From: Rhizophagus sp. LPA8_4_AMF
Taxonomy: Eukaryota; Glomeromycota; Glomeromycetes; Glomerales; Glomeraceae
DNA length: 64,000 nucleotides
Direction: 5' to 3'
Assembly: GCA_021464525.1 (NCBI GenBank)
Contig: JADRCO010000032.1
Coordinates: 1 to 64,000 of the forward strand
Below the pieces are notes generated by a model. That model saw only the letters and a program-made list of their open reading frames with translations, did no database searches and was not told the origin of the DNA. Shown piece after piece: positions 18,252-44,937 of this stretch. Each line of letters starts with the position of its first letter. Positions within the stretch are counted from its first letter, which is position 1. The translations under genes were made by a program, and so were the position numbers.

Positions 18252-19645
18252 TTATTCTTGTTTTTCCTCTAATGGTTGACTCTCTTGTTGACGTTCTTCA
18301 CTGGCTGTCATGCGATGCCAAACATATTCTTGAGCAATTGTTTTAACAGCTAATTTTATCGCTTGAACCATCTTTAACTCAACCCATTCATTATCTTCAT
18401 TGGGAATATCTAGCCAGTTAACAGGTAATGCTTGTGAAACAGTCTTAAAGGTTAGTTTATGAGTTGGATCAGTGAGAACAATAACGTAAAATAGGTATTG
18501 TTCAGAATCCGTTGATGTTTCGCTATTTGTTGGTAAAGAGCAAGGATTTGCTTTTGTGGGTTGAATTGCCATGAAAACGGGACAAGTTGTTGTTGGAATA
18601 TCTCTTAATAACTCTTGTTGATCTTGTTCTTTGATTTTTTCACTTATTGAAGGAGGTGGTTTATAATGTTTCTTGATCATTTGTTCAATATTAGCCTAAA
18701 AATTGTTAATTCTTACAAATCAATTATAATATAATTAGATAAAATTAAGATATAAAAATCTTTTAATTACCTTTGCAATTCCACCAGCTTCAATAAAACC
18801 TTCACAAACATTTAATTCTCTGTGCATTTCATCTTCTGAATCATACTTTATTGATTCATTGCCTTTTCTTACTACAATATCTCCACCCTCAACTTGTTCC
18901 ATTATTTTCATGAATGCTGTATACACAAGGGATTCTAGTCCAACATATCCTACCATATCATGTGTTAACCATACTTCCACTATCTCATATTGTGAAATTG
19001 GAGGCACTACAGCATTGACTACAGTTGTAAGAGTACTTAATCCTAGATTTCTTAGATCAGTTCCTTTAAAATAACAATAAAGAATGTTAAATTATAATTC
19101 TAATAATAATGATTATAAATAAACGACAAATCATTAAATGATATGATTGATGAACCTATTTTTCCAATTGCTTCCTTATTTAGAATTCCGCGGAACTTTT
19201 CTTCAAATTTCTTAGTTCCTTCATTTGTGCGTACATTTTCAACTGTAGCTAATGCTTCTTTAACAGAAGAATCAACAACAGTACTTGCAGTCTTGTAAGC
19301 TGTAGAAGCTGACGCTAATAGACCTCCCCAAGACCAAGCTCCCTCTTGTTTTTGTTCTTGAGTTTCACTTGATATTTGTTGTTGGTTTTGTTTTTGTTGT
19401 TGTGGAAGTGGTTGTGGTGGCTGTTCCGGTTGTTCTGCCAAACTACTTTGATTATCTCCTCCTTTAGACGAACTATTATTTTGAGCGTTAAACTGGTCAA
19501 GAAAATCAAGAACTGATTGAGTATCAGCAGGTGGTTGTCCTCCTTCTGGGTTAGTAGCAGTTGTTTGAGAATAGTTATCTAATGTTTCAAGAAACTGAAG
19601 GACGTCTTCACCAGCATTTGAGGTTGGTGGTTTTGTTTCAGTCAT
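18252..19645 (-). CDS. MTC1: MTC1 family protein (maintenance of telomere capping 1)
   Basis: Three exons (19645-19156, 19063-18771, 18695-18252) give 408 residues. Family features are an N-terminal V-L-Q-F-L-E-T-L segment followed by Gln/Pro-rich linker, the W-S-W-G-G-L-L-A-S-A-S-T-A-Y-K-T block near 130-150, and a conserved core with P-P-I-S-Q-Y-E, T-H-D-M-V-G-Y and V-E-G-G-D. These are the signatures of the fungal family that includes yeast Mtc1 (DUF5427). Yeast Mtc1 was named from a telomere-capping genetic screen, but the protein localises to early Golgi/COPI vesicles. An upstream in-frame ATG (19696) would add 17 residues; the start at 19645 (M-T-E-T-K) is preferred because the family begins close to it. 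Confidence 0.85.
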
Positions 19646-19850
19646 TGTATTATATCTACTTTTTTCTCGATGGGTAATGAAGAGAATTGTGTTCACCTGA
19701 TCTACGTGATCTATATTTATCTAAGTATCAGTCAGTATCACGTGTTTCTTTGCCTTTGATAAGGTCGGCTCGGTTGCTACGCCGTAGTTCACTGCGGTTC
19801 TCCACCTTTCATAATTATTTAAATATTTTATTTAGATTGATAATCGAAAT
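19646..19850. promoter_or_regulatory. divergent MTC1/BRO1 promoter with CACGTG box
   Basis: The 205-base spacer between the two start codons is less AT-rich than most spacers here. It contains a palindromic CACGTG at 19739-19744, the E-box bound by bHLH factors such as Cbf1 and Pho4 in yeasts. Which gene it serves is unknown. Confidence 0.4.
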
Positions 19851-22800
19851 ATGAACCAAAGTCCAACAATTCATGTTCCAACAAAAAGGACAGACGAAGT
19901 TGATTGGGCAAGTCCTCTTAAGAGATATATTCAAACAACATATCAAGAGGATCCAGAAAAATATGCAGACGAAGTTAATTCAATTCACCGTCTAAGACAA
20001 GATATGAGAGGTGCTGGTAAGGATCTAACTGGAAGAGATTTATTATATCGATATTATGGCCAGTTAGAGTTACTTGATTTAAGGTTCCCTGTTGATGAAA
20101 ACCATATTAGAGTTTCCTTCACATGGTATTAAGTAATTTTCAATTATAATGAAATTTTTTTACAAGTGAATTTTTTGATTTTTTGATGATTTATATTTTG
20201 GAATTATATGAAATTATTTTAGGTACGACGCTTTTACTCTTAAATCTACTTCTCAGTTTTCACTTGCATATGAAAAAGCAAGCACAATTTTCAATATTGC
20301 TTCTGTCTTATCTGCAATTGCTGCTTCTCAAAATCGATCTGAATCTGAAGGTTTAAAACGCGCTTTCAATTTTTTCCAAGCTTCTGCTGGAATGTATACT
20401 TATATAAATGATAACTTTTTGCACGCTCCTTCAACTGATTTAAGTCGTGATACTGTGAAGTTGCTTTCACAACTAATGCTTACACAGGCTCAAGAATGTT
20501 TCTTAGAGCAAAGTTTAGTAAAAAATAAACCTGCTTTGATAGCTAAATTAGCCGCTCAGGCTGGTTGGTCTTACGGAAATGTTGTTGAAAATATGGGTGA
20601 TCTTGTAGGTCGTAGCGTATTTGACAGGAGTTGGCTGACGATTTGTCAGGTACAGCATAAAATATATCAAAATATTACAAAATTTAATTTATATCAGAAA
20701 TTGCAGTAACCCAAATTATTTTGACTTTGCTTCAGATAAAACAAAAATATCTTTCATCTATTGCACAATATCAAAAATCTTTGGCTTGTGAAGGGGAGGG
20801 TAAATATGGGGAATGTGTTGGTCGTCTCACCATTGCGGAGACTTTGGCTAAAGATGCAAATAAACTTTCCAACAGTTTTGTATCATCCTTTTCGCCGACT
20901 GTAACTCAAACTCTCCCTCCAGATGCTGCAACTTCATTACAAGAACTTATAAAGTCAAATCTTGCACTGATTACGGAGAAAAAAAATTCCGCTACAAAGG
21001 ATAATGATATTGTGTACCATGAAATTGTACCTCAAGAAAGTGTAATTCCGCCTATAGATAAGTTGAATGCAGTTAAACAAATGCCAATACAAGAATTATA
21101 TGGAAATAATGAGATTCAAAAAGTTATTGGACAAGATATTTTCCATCGACTTATTCCATTGTCGGTTCATGAATCCGCATCGTTATATTCAGAAGAAAAG
21201 GCTAAAATAGTTCGTAGTGAAACTGAGAGATGTGATATTTCTAATGGCGAATTAGAAGCTGCTTTAGAATATATGAAATTACCAAAAATTCTTGGAAAAT
21301 TTAAGACTAGTAATAATGATGAATCTCGATATTTGAATGAATTGGCATCACCCAGTCTTGAAGTTAAACAGTGGGCTCAATTGATAAAAACAGAAGAAGA
21401 ACAAAGTGGTACAATTAAAGATTTACAAACAAATTTAAATGGTTTAAAAAGTAGAGCGAAGGAAATTTTAGATGAAATTTCTAAAACATTAGAAAATGAT
21501 CATCGAGATTACGACATTATGAAGGTAAAAATTTTTTGTATAATAATTCAATTCCCCCTATTCCGAAAGTTATTATAAATAACAATTATTACTTAATAAT
21601 TAGGCAAAACATGGTGATTTATGGACACAGACTTCACCTATTACTTCTTATCGACAAGACTTTCTTAATCATAGTAGTACACTTGAAAAAGCCGCAAATT
21701 CCGATCAGCATCTGCTTCAAAGATACAATCATTATTTTAATGATATTATGATTTTACAAAAAGGCGAAAATAGTGATGATTTAGAAAAAATATTTGCAGA
21801 AGCATTAGCACTCTCTGTAAATGTTAATAATGATACATTTGCAGGAGGTAGGAGAGTGAGCAACGCGGAAAGTTTGTTAGATGTAGATACGTCGAAACCT
21901 GAGGAAGATATTAGTACTAAATTACATAAAGTCGAAGAATGTTTAAGTACTTTAAATAAAGTTAGAAAAGAACGAATGGATACATTAAATGATTTAAAAG
22001 AAAAGGTTAAAAAAACTATTATCATCATTAATTATATTGATAAAAAATTAATATGTATTTATAGTTATTATTTTTTTTTTTTTATTATTATTATTATATA
22101 GACACATCAAGATGATATATCCCATCTTTTAATCCTAAATAAGAAGTCACAAAATATTGAACCACAACTTTTTGCAACTGAGCTTGAAAAATTCTCTCCA
22201 TATCGTAATCGTATAACCGCCAGTATTCATCATCAACAAGTTTTATTACAAGATCTGACAACTAATTATAAAAGCTTAATGGAAAATGATGACGCAAAGA
22301 AATTACAAACACGATGGGATTATGCTGAACAAGGAAGAAGAGATGTCTGTGATCGGTTGAGAAAAGCAAAAGATGGTTACCTTGAGGTTAAAGAAGGCTT
22401 GAGGTAAACTCTTACTTATTAGTCATGATATTTTTGTTTTGTTATTTAATTAAGACTTATATAATAATGATAAAATTATAGGAAGGGAATTCAATTTTAT
22501 GCTGATTTGAATGATCTTATTGAAAATCTTTCCAAGAATATACATCAATATACAATAGCTCGTCAAAAAGAACGTAATGAATTATTACAATCTATTCAAA
22601 CTCAAGAACAGCAAAGAGTTAAAGATCAAATAAATAAACTCATATCGCCAAACACGCCATCTTCTAATCAAGCAATAAATAGTTATGATTCTATGGCTCA
22701 ACTGACAGAAGAAGCAAATAAATTGTCAATCAATAATACTTTACCAATTGACAATAGAAATTTAAATACTTCAAGTTTATCAACAATATCACAGACTAAA

Positions 22801-24087
22801 TCTAATGCTACCAATTTCTACAATACTACATCCCAACCTTATGTACCGAGTACACCATCACCTATCCGAAAAGACTCTTACCCTAATGCTTCAGCACCTT
22901 ATGTTCCTATAGCTCCTCCAAAACCATCTGCACCACCTGCTTTAGTAGGTCTGGGTTCTTCACAAAGGTCTATTTCATCAATATATATGACAGACTCTTC
23001 CTCTCCAAAATCACAAGGCCCACCTATACCTCCTATACCTTCTGAATATCAGTCACAACAGAATAATATGTTTAATTCACATCAACCTGCATCAATCTCT
23101 CAATTACAGCAGCTCCCACAACAATCACCATCAATTTTACATACTCACGGTCAGTATACAAGACCACTGCAACTACCGCCTCAACAAATATCGCAGCAGA
23201 TACAGCCACAACAACAATTACAACCACAACAACAGTTACAACAACCACCACCACAACAACAGTTACAACAACCACCACCACAACAACAGTTACAGCAACC
23301 ACCACCACAACAGTTACCACCACAACAACCACCTCAACAACAGCCGCAACAACCACAGCAACAACAGCTATATCAACAACCACAGCAACAACAGCTATAT
23401 CAACAACCACAGCAGCAACAGCTATATCAACAACCACAGCAACAACAGCTACATCAACAACCACCGCCGCCGCAACAACCACTACATCATCATCTACCAC
23501 CACAACAGCTAACACCACACCAGCTACCACAACTACCGTTGCAACCACAACCACCACAACCACAAGCTTCTCAATTTCAAACTTATCAGCAACATGGTCA
23601 ACAACCTTCTCAACAATCATACTCGAGACCGTCAAGCACATACGTTATGCAAACACCTCCTCAAACACCTCCACAACCAATGCAGCCTTCTTACTCATCA
23701 GCGAACTTCCAATACTCTCAACAATCATCACAACCGACGACAAATTTGACATCGTTGCCTCCAACTCCACAGCCACAGCAATTGCCTACTCAATATCGCC
23801 AACCATCATTTGATAATTATGCTAATCAGACAAGTCAATACTATACTAGTCAGTCATCGCCAGGAAATCAATATCTTCCACATCAATTATCACAATATTC
23901 TGGAGCCCAAACTCAAGGATTCAATAATCATCCTCAAGCTCAACAAGCACCTCATACACAACAAAATACTTACCAATCTAATATGCAACATCCACAAGGG
24001 AATTTTCAACCTGCAACAAGTTATCCTGCTTATTCTTATAATCAACAACAAACTCAACAGCAAAGTAAATCATTGTTAGATGATTAA
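19851..24087 (+). CDS. BRO1: BRO1/ALIX family ESCRT-associated protein
   Basis: Six exons (19851-20125, 20223-20649, 20736-21524, 21604-22005, 22102-22403, 22482-24087) give 1266 residues. The first ~390 residues are a BRO1 domain (starting with K-R-T-D-E-V-D-W, with R-R/R-Y-Y-G-Q-L and F-T-W-Y-D-A-F motifs), which in the family binds the ESCRT-III subunit Snf7/CHMP4. Residues ~400-800 form the helical V domain that binds YPxL-type peptides and ubiquitin. The C-terminal ~450 residues are Pro/Gln-rich, with an almost pure Gln/Pro tract at about 930-1100. In yeast, Bro1 recruits the deubiquitinase Doa4 to endosomes during multivesicular-body sorting. The protein is longer than yeast Bro1 (844), entirely through the tail. 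Rim20/PalA is the related alternative, but the long proline-rich tail favours BRO1/ALIX. Confidence 0.9.
23200..23545 (+). repeat. CAA/CAG/CCA codon repeat in the BRO1 tail
   Basis: Nested tandem repeats within the last exon encode Gln/Pro runs. One unit (codons for Q-Q-L-Q-Q-P-P-P-Q) recurs about three times, followed by a 24-base unit (codons for L-Y-Q-Q-P-Q-Q-Q) about four times. The near identity of the 24-base units suggests recent slippage or unequal exchange. Confidence 0.75.
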
Positions 24088-33627: not shown

Positions 33628-33768
33628 TTAAAAATAATGTAATCTCGTGATCTCCGGCTGAATTATATAAATTTTAATGTACAAGTACACGCAGTTGACT
33701 TTTCTTAGAAAAAAAGGAAATTTTTTTTAAATATACTAAAATCACTAATTTGAATAAACATTATATTT
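33628..33768. promoter_or_regulatory. 141-bp divergent promoter region
   Basis: Only 141 bases separate the start codons of the uncharacterised minus-strand gene and PFS2, so the two share a compact bidirectional promoter. No specific site is recognised. Confidence 0.45.
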
Positions 33769-37037
<3,269 letters not shown>

Positions 37038-39019
37038 ATATTTATAATTGTATTTTAATATTATATTTGTAATATTTTTTTTTTTTTTTTCTTCTATAAA
37101 AAATAAAAAAAGCCCCAAACTTATGGATTATAAAAAGTAATAATAAAATTACATCATTATATATATATATACATACGCATATACATCTGCTGAGTATAGT
37201 GTCACATCTATCAGTCTTTTGTGTGATAAAATACTGTAAGTGGAACACATGACAGGTTAATTTATAATGAATTGTACAAGTCAAAATTCTTTACTGGGCA
37301 TAGCAAGTTCGGAGCAAAAAAAAAATTTGCCTTATGATCACGTGGCAGACAGTGTCGCGTAGACGAATCTTGATGATGTGGAAATTTGTCGTCAAATGAA
37401 ATATCTAACTGAAGAACAAGAGTGTTTAACAAAGCTTGTTCCAATTAACTATTTCAAGCTTTTTTTTTTTGCTAATATAATATGATCCAATCCTTCAATT
37501 AGGTCAAGTAATATCATTCTTATTATTCTTTAAAGTAAAATCTTAACAATTTTAATTTTGCAAATTTTTTGAATAATTTGATTAAATTATTTAAAAAAAA
37601 GTGTTTTTTTTTGAGATAAGAGAATGAATGTCTTGGTACTTTGATAAAAAAAAAGCCGAAAGAAGTGATTTATCAGTGTTAGATGAGAATTGAAATTTAT
37701 CCCAAAAATGGTTCTTTTTATTCTTGATACTAGTAATTTATTAGATTTTGAATATGTCAAATGACATTGATCTGATTTCCAAAGTAAAATTATTTTACCT
37801 TTCTATATTTTAAATAATTTTTTTTTCAATAAAGTTTCAACCCTTTTTTACAAATTCTGACTTAATTGATAATAGGTAAAAAGTTAATGTTATGTAATTT
37901 TTATTTAGTAATAAAAAAAAAAGAAATATAGCCAATCTTTTATTAACAATAAAATAGAATGCCTGAATAGAAAACTTGAAGTAAAACTATTCGAAGTTCT
38001 ATCAATCGTTTGTTCTATATTCACATTGGTTGCGGGATTTTCAATTTTGCTATCATTACAAAAAGGTTTTGTTTTTTGTTACGGCCTTATTTTGACAAGT
38101 TTAAAGTAACTTCTAATCATAATTTAACTTGGAGAATTACTAAATATAATCATTTAGTAATCAGGGAAATAATAAATAAATCGAATATATAATTTCTATT
38201 GGTAAAATAATCACCAGTAAAGTAATTGTAAGTGAAATGAAAATAGCTATTGAAACTGATTTTTAGCATACAGGCCAGCCGGTGAAGGTGCAAAATGATC
38301 AGCGTTTAGGCACGCTTTTAGAGTCTACATGCGATTCTTTGAGAATCGATTTTACTAGATTTTTTTCAGAATCGATTCCAATCCCTACTTAATTCTATTA
38401 TTATTTAAATTAAATCAATTGCAAAAAAATCCTTATAATTAATAATACTATAAACAAAAAGTTAACTATTAATGGAATTAAATTTCAAAAAGAAAAAATA
38501 AAATTGTCAAATTAAATCAAACTTTTATTATAGAAAATTAAGCATGTTTTTAAAGAAAATATTTGGTTAATTTATTTGTTCTTTAATAAATTGATATAAA
38601 AAAATGATATAAAAAGTTGCTAGAGATAAATATTATTAAATACCTTTGCAATTGCTGCAAATTACGCGATGTTGTAATGAACTAGCAAGGGTATATGTTT
38701 CATTGCCAATAATAATGATGGATCTTACTGTTCATTTCTTACTGTTGACGTGACACCGCAAATTGTATGTATTAATGTATGGTATAGTTTTTATTTTATA
38801 TAATTTTTATCTATACTGTATTGATCTTAATCATAGTGTAAATGTTTAATTTTTTAATCCAAATTCCTAACCCAAATTCCTTAATTTTGCTTAACCCTAA
38901 CTCTAAAACTATACTCACACCGTGACAAATTAACCTTTTAGTAGTTGTCTTTGTACTGACTAGTGATAAAACGTTCACATTAGTCAACCAATTATATTCA
39001 ACTGTTGCAACTGTATTTT
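37038..39019. other. gene-free spacer upstream of POL3
   Basis: About 2 kb of AT-rich DNA. A GC-richer patch at 37190-37450 holds only a short minus-strand frame (60 codons) without family features. A repeat-like segment at 38273-38392 is listed separately. The POL3 promoter should lie at the right end. Confidence 0.5.
38273..38392. repeat. GC-richer repeat-like segment with GAATCGATT motifs
   Basis: A ~120-base block, distinctly richer in G and C than its flanks, begins GGCCAGCCGGTGAAGGTGC and ends with two GAATCGATT words ~30 bases apart. It has the look of a short dispersed repeat (SINE or MITE remnant), but no terminal repeats or target duplications were found. Confidence 0.3.
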
Positions 39020-39080: not shown

Positions 39081-42000
39081 ATGTCAACCTTTTCTTCTCG
39101 AAACAAAAAGAAAGCAAATGCGCTACCTTCTTTTGAAGAACAATTGGCTCTTTTGCAAGATAGTGAAGGCGCCAATGGTAAGTAAAACGCGACCTTTACG
39201 TTAATAATTCAAGTTAATTTATTAAAATTATTTTTTGTTTGCTATAGCTGATAAAATTCACCAAGTTTGGGCACGCCCAAGTGTGCCAAATATCGTCTCT
39301 AATCGTGACTCTATTAGTAAGTAAAATATTTATAGTCTATCATTCGACAGCAGATATCATATTTAATGTTTCCATAGTATTTCAGCAAATTGAAATCGAC
39401 GATAGCATCGATCCCGTATCAAGAGAACCAATTATCCGAATGTTTGGCATTACAGAGGTACATCAGAAATGAACTACTTTGCTAAGTCTCCTGTCTCTGT
39501 TAATAACGATTTTTCCTTGATAGATTGGAAATAGCGTTCTTTGTTATGTCACGGGTTTTCGTCCATATTTTTATATTCCAGCACCAATTGGTTTCAGAGA
39601 AAATGAAATATCTAGTTTACAAAAACAGATCACGGTAACTGTATAATAAAATCCTATTTGAAAACTTTTTATTTATTTCTAAACTTCAAATAATAATAAG
39701 TAATATGTTTAGTGCGCAATGGATAATGGTTCAAAGAAGCCAATCGAAAGAATTGAACTTACTTTAAAAGAGAGTATATGGGGTTATCATGGAAATAAAA
39801 AGAGTCAGTTCCTCAAAATTATTTTTAGTGATGTGAAAGCTATGAATACTGCTAGACATATCCTTTATAATTTAATCCTTCCGTTTTTCGCATTAACAAA
39901 TAAATATAATAAATAATCCTTAACACCTTGTACGCCTCATCGAGGATGGAGCTATTAAATATAACGAACGGCAACTTCGAGAAATGACATTTGAAAGCAA
40001 TATCAATTATGTTTTACGATTCATGATTGATTGCAAGGTTTTCATCTTATATTATCATTTTGCAAATTTGTTAGCTACGAACTAATTTCTCATATAGGAT
40101 TGTTCTAATTAGGTTTCTGGAGCAAATTGGATAGAACTACCACCAAAAAGTTACAGTTTGCGTACTAATTTGCCCGAGACATCTACTTGTCAACTGGAAA
40201 TTGATATAAAGTAATACATGTGTAGATAATTTTATATATGTTTTAATAAATATATAATTTATTAATTTTATACTGTTTAGATACGACCGATTCATTAGTC
40301 ATTCTCCTGAAGGCGAATGGTCAAAAATAGCTCCATTGCGTATTCTAAGTTTTGACATTGAATGCGCAGGTCGCAAGGGCATTTTTCCTGATCCCGCAGA
40401 GGACCCAGTTATTCAAATTGCCAATATGGTTACGAGACAAGGTCACATTTTCTTATAAATGTAAATTGATTTAATATTAAATAATTAATCCGTTATTTAA
40501 TTACACTTTATAGGTGAAAAACATCCTTTTGTCAGAAATGTCTTCACCTTAAATTCTTGTGCTCCAATTGTTGCAACTGATGTCATCGAATGTTATGATC
40601 AAGGGAAGATGTTGCAAGCATGGAGAGATTTTGTAATCGAGGCATGTATATTGTTATGTCAGCTTATGTCATGTGATTTGATAATAATCTTTAAATTGAT
40701 TGTTTTTAATAGGTAGACCCTGATGTTATCATAGGATATAATATCACGAATTTTGATTTTCCATATTTACTTGATCGCGCCCACCAATTGAGAGTAAATA
40801 AATTTCCATATCTTGGTCGTATGAAAGGTACACATATATACGTTATTATCTAATTCATATCTTCTTGAGAAATAATGATTTTTCTAAAATTATTTATATT
40901 TTATTAAGGTATAAAGACAGAGGTTAAAGACACTAAATTCTCTTCAAAAGCGTATACTCGGGAAAACAAATTTATCAATATCCTTTTTTACATAAAACTA
41001 ATAACCATGTAAATCACCATTATAATTATAAGTCTTAACTAAAATTTACATCTTGAAGGAAGACTTCAGCTTGATATGTTACAGGTTATGCAGCGTGATC
41101 ATAAGTTAAGATCTTATACGCTTAATTCTGTATGTGCCCATTTTCTAGGTGAGAAATATATTTTCTTCATTTAATCCATTTAATTAATTTATATTTGGTA
41201 CATGTAAATAAGGTTTTTTGAAATTATAAAGGGGAGCAAAAAGAAGAAGTACATCATTCCATTATTACTGATTTACAAAATGGAAATGATGAATCACGAC
41301 GAAGGTTAGCGATTTATTGTTTGAAGGTCTGTAGTTTATTATTTAAATAGATACATTTATACAAGTAAATTTAAGCAATTTGATATTAAATATTTGTTAG
41401 GATGCAATCTTGCCACAGAGATTAATGGACAAACTCATGTGTCTTATCAATTATCTTGAAATGGCTCGTGTTACAGGAGTTCCTTTCAATTATCTTCTTG
41501 CTCGTGGACAACAAATTAAAGTAGTATCACAATTATACAGAAAAGCGTTTGAGCAAGACTTGGTTATACCGGCTTTAAAATCAGAGGGTATTAAATATTT
41601 ATTATTTATCCTGTGATATTCGGTTAAAGTAAAATTTGACGGCGTTAATGTGCAATAATATTGCAATTACTTAGGATCAGATGATCAATTTGAAGGAGCA
41701 ACCGTTATTGAACCGGAAAGGGGGTTTTATAATGTTCCAATAGCTACACTTGATTTTAGCTCTTTATATCCTTCTATCATGATTGCTCATAACCTTTGCT
41801 ATACAACATTATTGGATAACAAAGAAATTGATAGATTAGGTGATGTTGATTATATTACAACACCATATAACAATGGTAGGTATTAATAAAAAAGGTATGG
41901 CTTTTGTCCAGATCTTAACCAAACTTATATATCATTAATTACATTAGCAAAGTTTGTGAAAGTTCATCATCGAAAGGGACTTTTACCTACAATCTTAGAA

Positions 42001-44142
42001 GATCTTCTTTCTGCACGCAAGAAAGCCAAGGCAGACTTAAAAAAAGAGACAGATCCTTTTAAAAAAGCTGTTCTTGATGGACGTCAATTAGCTCTTAAGG
42101 TAACATTATTGTATATATTTAATAAATAATGAACTTCAATTGAAATAAAACCAAACATTCTCTTATAGACTAGTGCAAATTCTGTATATGGGTTTACTGG
42201 TGCTACAGTTGGTAAGCTTCCTTGTATTGAAATTTCAGCAAGTGTCACAGCTTATGGACGTCAGATGATTGAAAAGACAAAACAGGTTGATACACTTATT
42301 TCATAGTTGATTTACAATATTGTGAAATATCAAGTTTATGTGCATTTTTTTTTTAGGAGGTGGAAAGTCAATATACCATAGCCAATGGATATCAACATGA
42401 TGTTCATGTTATTTATGGAGACACAGATTCCATTATGGTAAAATTTGGAGTGGATAATCTAGTCGATGCCATGGCTTTAGGTAAATTTTTCCATTAGCAT
42501 TCATTTTCATATATAAGTGGTTATTAACATACTTTAATAGGGAGGGAAGCGGCAGACTATGTTACAAGGAAATTTGTTAAACCGATTAAATTAGAATTTG
42601 AAAAGGTTTACTTTCCATATTTATTAATAAATAAAAAGCGTTATGCTGGTTTATATTGGACGAATCCAGATAAATGGGATAAATTAGATACTAAGGGTAT
42701 TGAGGTAAGCTTTTGATGCAAAGTTTGTTAAAAATTGTGGAAACTAAACGTTATTCTTATTATAATAATAGACTGTCAGGAGAGACAATTGCCTTCTCGT
42801 ACAAAATGTAATAGAAACATGTTTGAGAAAAATGTTGATTGATCGGGATGTTTCCGGTGCCGAAGAGTACGTACCTAATATGTTTTTCTTAATATATTGC
42901 CCATTGACATTTGCTTAACATTTGGCACTTTCATAGATATGCTAAGAAAACAATTTCAGATTTACTTCAGAATAAAATTGACATGTCACAATTGGTTATC
43001 ACAAAAGCCTTAAGTAAATCAGGTAGATTTTAATAATAATTATTAATTTCTTTACTTTTCTGTTGAATATACGTAATTTTATTAATTGATATATCATCAT
43101 CCAGATTATTCGGCTAAACAGCCACATCATGAATTGGCTGAACGTATGCGTAAGCGTGATGCAGGCAAGTAACACGTTAAATTCGTTTTAAATTATAAAA
43201 ATTTTTTAACAATTTTTAATTAAAAAAAAAAGGTTCTGCGCCAACACTTGGCGATCGGGTCGCTTATGTTATAGTAAAAAGTACTAAAGGTAATAAATTT
43301 ATATTTTGTTTATTTCATATCAAATTATGAAAGTCAACGTATTATTTGATAAATTTAGGCGCCGCTGCCTACGAAAAATCAGAAGATCCGATATATGTTC
43401 TAGAAAATAATATTCCTATTGATACTAACTATTATTTGGAGAATCAATTATCTAAACCATTATTAAGAATTTTCGAACCAATTCTTGGCGACAAAGCTCA
43501 GTCTTTACGTGAGTAGTGATCGTAACTTATAATATTTAAATGAACGAGTTATAATTAATCTTTTTATATTTATCAAGTTGCTGGTGATCATACTCGTGTC
43601 GTTCAAATTGCAACACCAACAATTGGCGGATTGATGAAATTTGCCGTAAAGACAGCTACTTGTTTAGGATGTAAAACTCCTCTATCAAAAAACGGTATTT
43701 TCACAATTTATATGTCTAAAATAATAATATTTAGATTCTTACACTTTCAAAATTACAGATACAGCAGTATGTCGACATTGTAAGCCGAAATTGGGTGAAT
43801 TTTATCAGCGACAGGTAACCTTTTTCATTGCATGTTTTATTATAAGAACATTTATAACTATCTTTTCCCGATAGCTCGACACTGTAAACAAACTCGAAGT
43901 CCATTTTGCTCGGTTATGGACTCAATGTCAAAGGTGTCAAGGCAGCTTACATCAGGATATTCTCTGTAGTTCAAGGGATTGTCCTATATGGTACGAATTG
44001 TGATCTATGGTCGATTGCTCCTTATTTTTTTTTTAATTAATGCCAATGAATTATAATTTATGGCAGGTATATGAGGAAGAAGGCTCAAAAGGATGTGCAA
44101 GATGCAACCAATCTTCTTGAAAGGTTCAATTATGCGTGGTGA
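39081..44142 (+). CDS. POL3: DNA polymerase delta catalytic subunit
   Basis: Twenty-eight exons give 1042 residues (yeast and human are near 1100). The B-family polymerase contains a 3'-5' exonuclease with Exo I F-D-I-E-C-A-G (D260/E262), polymerase motif A D-F-S-S-L-Y-P-S (D546), motif B around T-S-A-N-S-V-Y-G (638-645), and motif C Y-G-D-T-D-S (D698, D700). CysA (C950, C953, C965, C968) and CysB (C997, C1000, C1010, C1015), which in this family holds a 4Fe-4S cluster and contacts the B subunit, complete the C-terminus. It is the main lagging-strand replicase. Intron types are mixed: two AT-AC introns (39858-39933, 40978-41049), two GC-AG introns (starting 40642 and 43165), and the rest GT-AG. 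Exon starts include 39248, 39378, 39524, 39713, 39934, 40113, 40281, 40514, 40713, 40909, 41050, 41232, 41401, 41675, 41948, 42169, 42357, 42541, 42772, 42937, 43105, 43233, 43359, 43578, 43759, 43875 and 44067. The N-terminus is short, so an upstream exon cannot be excluded. Confidence 0.96.
39858..39933 (+). other. U12-type AT-AC intron in POL3 (76 nt)
   Basis: The intron begins ATATCCTTT, the consensus minor-class 5' splice site, contains the consensus branch sequence TCCTTAAC at 39917-39924, and ends in AC ten bases past the branch adenosine. Splicing joins ...N-T-A-R to R-L-I-E-D-G, matching the A-R-R-L-L-E-Q-G of human POLD1. There is no AG anywhere between the upstream exon and the restored frame, so no GT-AG or GC-AG solution exists. 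The unspliced frame hits a stop. Confidence 0.9.
40978..41049 (+). other. second U12-type AT-AC intron in POL3 (72 nt)
   Basis: It begins ATATCCTTT, has the branch-like sequence GTCTTAAC at 41032-41039, and ends in AC eleven bases after the branch adenosine. Splicing gives [16 protein letters not shown], the conserved polymerase delta segment (human V-G-R-V-Q-M-D-M-L-Q). Reading through meets in-frame stops. Confidence 0.88.
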
Positions 44143-44491
44143 AATTAGACAAAACTTTATATCAAACCGGCCGTAGTTCCAGATAATGTGAATAATGTGG
44201 CTAAATATGTACAATATAAATTGTAATTAAAATTGATTAATTTGTCTGAAGGATGAACAGATTTTATAATTTCAGTAAAGTCAACAATACGATAAGATTT
44301 ATCTTTGAAATATCACTGTTTAAATTTAACGCGTAATATAAGAAACTGACCTTTATGCCAAATATGATTTTTAGATTTTCTCTTGTAAAAGTCTGTATCC
44401 TTTAATAGCTTTGCTCTAATCCCCTTTTTATTTTTTAAAAAAGTATATTTGTTGTTTATTTGTTATTAGAAATGGGAAGGATATTAAAGCA

Positions 44492-44937
44492 TACCGTATA
44501 GCGCTGCATACAGTATCCCCCTCAAATAGTATCCCCCCTTAAATAGTACCAGGGTTAGGGTTGGTAAATTACGCTAATTTTGGGAATTTCAAATTATTAT
44601 ATATTACTAAAGTAATATACAATTTATATAATTATGATTACTATAATATTTGGCATAAATTACCTATAAGTTACATGTAAGTTACGCGTAAGTTACATCA
44701 ATGAATCAGAATAAGTTTATATATTGAATATGCTATGATACACAAAATTCTTGTATCTTAAAAATGTAATTTTAACCAGGGTACTATTCAACTACAAATT
44801 TCGATATTTTTGATTAGTACCTGGGGCTAATTCTGGCCAAAATTTGATATTTGGCCCCCTGGGTACTATTCAATCTAGGCTGGCTTTTTTGAATAGTACC
44901 GGGCAACCAGGAATACTATATGCAGCGCTATACGGTA
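44492..44937. mobile_element. 446-bp element with 17-bp perfect terminal inverted repeats and TA ends
   Basis: The left end TACCGTATAGCGCTGCATA and the right end TATGCAGCGCTATACGGTA are perfect inverted copies bounded by TA, as expected for the target duplication of Tc1/mariner-like elements. Just inside are several inverted copies of the word AATAGTACC(A/G)GG (e.g. near 44550, 44780, 44865, 44890), perhaps transposase-binding sites. There is no open frame, so it is non-autonomous. The perfect ends suggest it is young. Confidence 0.75.

Follow-up and report, generated by a model that had tools for sequence, protein, structure and literature searches.

Two probable U12-type AT-AC introns in a fungal gene for the catalytic subunit of DNA polymerase delta

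Introduction

In humans and plants, AT-AC introns of the U12 type are built on a ATATCCTTT / TCCTTAAC / AC architecture (5' splice site, branch element and 3' end), which is also the architecture of the two introns described here. The 5' splice site of such introns is recognised through pairing by U11 and later by U6atac, while U12 pairs with the branch element, whose adenosine is left bulged.

The closest described fungal system is that of Rhizophagus irregularis (Glomeromycota), in which 205 minor introns make up 0.272% of the annotated introns (Larue and Roy 2023, PMC10639083). All four minor snRNAs (U11, U12, U4atac and U6atac) have been reported in this species, its minor-intron consensus motifs are very close to the animal and plant ones, and its minor introns show the phase order 1>2>0, with phase 1 the commonest (PMC10639083). 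Minor-intron density is also high in Basidiobolus (PMC10639083), and U12-type introns were reported earlier from Rhizopus and Phycomyces (PMC2846911), with about 4 minor introns per genome in Rhizopus oryzae and about 20 in Phycomyces blakesleeanus (as cited in PMC10639083). Given the 205 introns and four snRNAs of R. irregularis (PMC10639083), and the examples from Rhizopus and Phycomyces (PMC2846911), the rarity in fungi implied by the original prediction, which concerned a single AT-AC intron in the gene studied here, was overstated.

The introns that we describe share their 5' splice-site and branch consensus with the minor introns of R. irregularis, and their phase (phase 1 in both cases) fits the preference seen there. 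R. irregularis probably belongs to the same AT-rich fungal phylum as the DNA analysed here. The U12-type introns of R. oryzae and P. blakesleeanus, AT-AC ones included (PMC2846911), are likewise fungal, but these species have few such introns per genome and belong to another fungal group.

Results

The window, by which we mean the whole 64-kb stretch of DNA that was analysed, contains among other genes an adjoining pair at 18255-19720 (minus strand) and 20212-24084 (plus strand). The first is a DUF5427 gene, DUF5427 being a fungal family, and the second encodes a BRO1 domain and a long tail rich in glutamine and proline. A WD40-repeat gene at 33763-37040, which by reading we take to resemble the polyadenylation factor Pfs2/WDR33, lies just upstream of the polymerase gene, and its introns looked GT-AG when read by eye. 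At 335-826 a unit of about 147 nt occurs three times in tandem, the copies being roughly 80% alike. The G+C content of the window is 27.8%. Published averages (PMC11134847) are 27% for Glomeromycota, 48% for Mortierellomycota and 40% for Mucoromycota; together with the gene content, the value of the window agrees with Glomeromycota. The source is most likely a glomeromycotan (arbuscular mycorrhizal) fungus or a near relative.

The gene of interest was assembled by hand into the following exon-intron structure.

39081-44142, plus strand: coding region of POLD1 (catalytic subunit of DNA polymerase delta), 28 exons and 27 introns, 1042 aa

The translation of this hand-built model is uninterrupted, with zero stops. 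The top phmmer match of the encoded protein is human POLD1 (6s1m_A, 1282.6 bits, residues 34-1039), followed by two further delta catalytic subunits (6p1h_A with 1221.1 bits and 7kc0_A with 1216.3 bits). Since polymerase zeta scores far lower, at only about 302 bits, the gene is, judging by its encoded protein, POLD1. Human and yeast POLD1 both align with this protein over its full length, end to end. The identity given to the gene in the original prediction is thus borne out. A search for POLD1 relatives among viral and prokaryote contigs returned none.

By their terminal dinucleotides, the 27 modelled introns comprise 23 GT-AG, two GC-AG and two AT-AC introns. The GC-AG introns are modelled at 43165-43232 (GCAAGT) and 40642-40712 (GCATGT); for the latter, a GT-AG alternative may exist that would yield a slightly different protein. 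The AT-AC introns are the fifth, which had been predicted before, and the eleventh, which had not. Their features, all on the plus strand, are as follows.

39858-39933, plus strand: intron 5, U12-type AT-AC by its motifs, the gene model and the join test, 76 nt, phase 1
39858-39866, plus strand: U12-type 5' splice site of intron 5, ATATCCTTT, 9/9 to consensus
39917-39924, plus strand: U12-type branch site of intron 5, TCCTTAAC, 8/8 to consensus, branch adenosine at 39923
39932-39933, plus strand: 3' terminal AC of intron 5, 10 nt past the branch adenosine
40978-41049, plus strand: intron 11, U12-type AT-AC by its motifs, the gene model and the join test, 72 nt, phase 1
40978-40986, plus strand: U12-type 5' splice site of intron 11, ATATCCTTT, 9/9 to consensus
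41032-41039, plus strand: U12-type branch site of intron 11, GTCTTAAC, 6/8 to TCCTTAAC, branch adenosine at 41038
41048-41049, plus strand: 3' terminal AC of intron 11, 11 nt past the branch adenosine

Both introns therefore open with the 5' splice site that defines the U12-type AT-AC class, ATATCCTT(T), carry an element like TCCTTAAC near their 3' end, at the canonical distance from the AC, terminate in AC and, once removed, restore the conserved reading frame. Reading through either of them unspliced meets stop codons. Joining position 39857 to 39934 gives AGA C|GC CTC, which encodes ...NTARRLIEDG..., and the human sequence ARRLLEQG aligns with it without gaps. No alignment gap falls at either junction, the nearest being a 1-residue gap several residues upstream of the intron 11 junction. 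Intron 5 contains no AG dinucleotide, and the first one downstream, at 39943-39944, is not preceded by a pyrimidine tract. What had been predicted for intron 5, from its 5' end, its branch sequence and an AC ten bases past the branch adenosine to the missing AG acceptor and the restored A-R-R-L-I-E-D-G, is all present in the DNA, and its assignment as a U12-type AT-AC intron is upheld by the motifs, the exhaustive join test and the POLD1 alignment.

The similarity between introns 5 and 11 is confined to the 5' splice site. With nothing alike beyond it, the two are not recent copies of each other, and we rejected a common origin by copying.

In the join test, the possible joins around each intron were enumerated, those with open in-frame products were kept, and these products were scored against human and yeast POLD1. 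For intron 5, the AT-AC join has the top score among 2511 open in-frame joins, tied with the two registers equivalent to it in sequence; these would be CA-TA and AC-GT introns, and no such intron type is known. For intron 11, the AT-AC join scores 330 among 1503 open in-frame joins, the maximum being 331, and the joins that outscore it, which lack any splice-site character, change a single residue (L to I). At each site three joins give an identical protein, among which homology alone cannot pick, and the AT-AC register was chosen because it alone combines known intron termini with the U12 motifs.

The same test bears on the reading that the major (U2) spliceosome removes these segments through nearby GT-AG or GC-AG sites, the AT-AC motifs being a coincidence. 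Frame-open GT/GC-AG pairs do exist, 8 at intron 5 and 6 at intron 11, among them one with a good-looking GTAAAT donor at 41009. However, every one of these pairs adds or removes residues in a conserved stretch. Their scores fall short of the AT-AC join by at least 34 at intron 5 and at least 58 at intron 11, these being the deficits of the best GT/GC-AG alternative and the best GT-AG alternative, respectively. For intron 5, moreover, the nearest AG is the one just downstream, with its missing pyrimidine tract. We consider this reading highly improbable.

It is just as improbable that the AT-AC introns are genuine but are excised by the U2 spliceosome. U2-dependent AT-AC introns do occur in other organisms, but these have 5' sites of the ATAAG type, and the site here is ATATCCTTT. 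Moreover, U12-type branch sites lie 10 nt (intron 5) and 11 nt (intron 11) from the intron end, which sets the pair apart from the remaining 25 introns, all of them GT-AG or GC-AG, where the two U12 motifs never occur together (0/25). As for the notion that this POLD1 copy is decaying or non-functional, which would make homology-based joins meaningless, we found no support for it, and with a 1042-aa protein that is open and aligns along its entire length with human and yeast POLD1 its probability is negligible.

How often such motifs would arise by chance was estimated from dinucleotide shuffles of the 64-kb window. The strict combination of 5' splice site, branch element and terminus occurs in about 20% of the shuffles (mean 0.21), and 1.5% of them hold at least two such combinations, so that a U12 motif alone in a 64-kb AT-rich window is modest evidence. 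In the whole window there are only two strict matches, both within POLD1 and both where homology independently requires introns. It is this coincidence of the two strict matches with intron positions fixed by protein homology that makes the case strong. By a rough, independent-base approximation, the chance of finding the observed motifs at a homology-fixed site is about 4e-10 for intron 5 and 1e-7 for intron 11. A loose weight-matrix scan for U12 introns, GT-AG ones included, gave 3 candidates of at least 20 bits against 1.7 expected, which is not above chance. The top candidate of that scan, at 44395-44552 and starting with GTATCCTTT, lies beyond the POLD1 stop codon and outside any gene model. 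It scores high in the scan but stays at chance level, its weak branch-like motif ends in AAAT rather than AAC, and we did not accept it as an intron.

Taken together, these findings make it very probable, as far as sequence can tell, that introns 5 and 11 of POLD1 are ordinary AT-AC spliceosomal introns of the minor (U12-type) class.

Discussion

If introns 5 and 11 are of the U12 type, their removal would follow the established course. U11 and then U6atac would pair with the ATATCCTTT of each intron, U12 would pair with the branch element and bulge the adenosine at 39923 (intron 5) or 41038 (intron 11), and the minor spliceosome would ligate 39857 to 39934 and 40977 to 41050. That the organism probably keeps a working minor spliceosome, as the presence of U12-type introns implies, is well supported by the sequence: an intact essential replicative polymerase needs both removals, and finding a second U12-type intron in POLD1 strengthens the argument. 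An Rfam scan of the 64-kb window found no snRNA genes, minor ones included, with two sub-threshold matches at chance level; this result holds for the window and carries no weight for the genome at large.

Little of this is new in kind: Mucoromycota, and above all the glomeromycete R. irregularis, are already known to have both minor introns and minor snRNAs (PMC10639083). At the R. irregularis density of 0.272%, the chance that the gene would have another minor intron among its 26 remaining ones is about 7%, which makes its occurrence mildly notable, no more. In the papers that we searched, the published R. irregularis intron list not being among them, no species was described as having a minor intron in its POLD1 gene. 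It is possible, with a likelihood that we would put somewhat short of even, that POLD1 here carries two minor-class introns undescribed in this gene before, which would make an essential polymerase twice dependent on the minor spliceosome.

An essential replication gene with two clear introns of the U12 type would add to the evidence that some early-diverging fungi have retained a working minor spliceosome. Given the roughly 205 minor introns and the four minor snRNAs of R. irregularis, the two introns would confirm the known picture and not change it. For practical purposes, gene predictors that allow only GT-AG introns would probably get such genes wrong, and POLD1 offers a clean local marker, the correct removal of two introns being readable from one transcript. 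Should making the polymerase require the minor spliceosome twice over, DNA replication would be limited directly if that machinery were lost or slowed.
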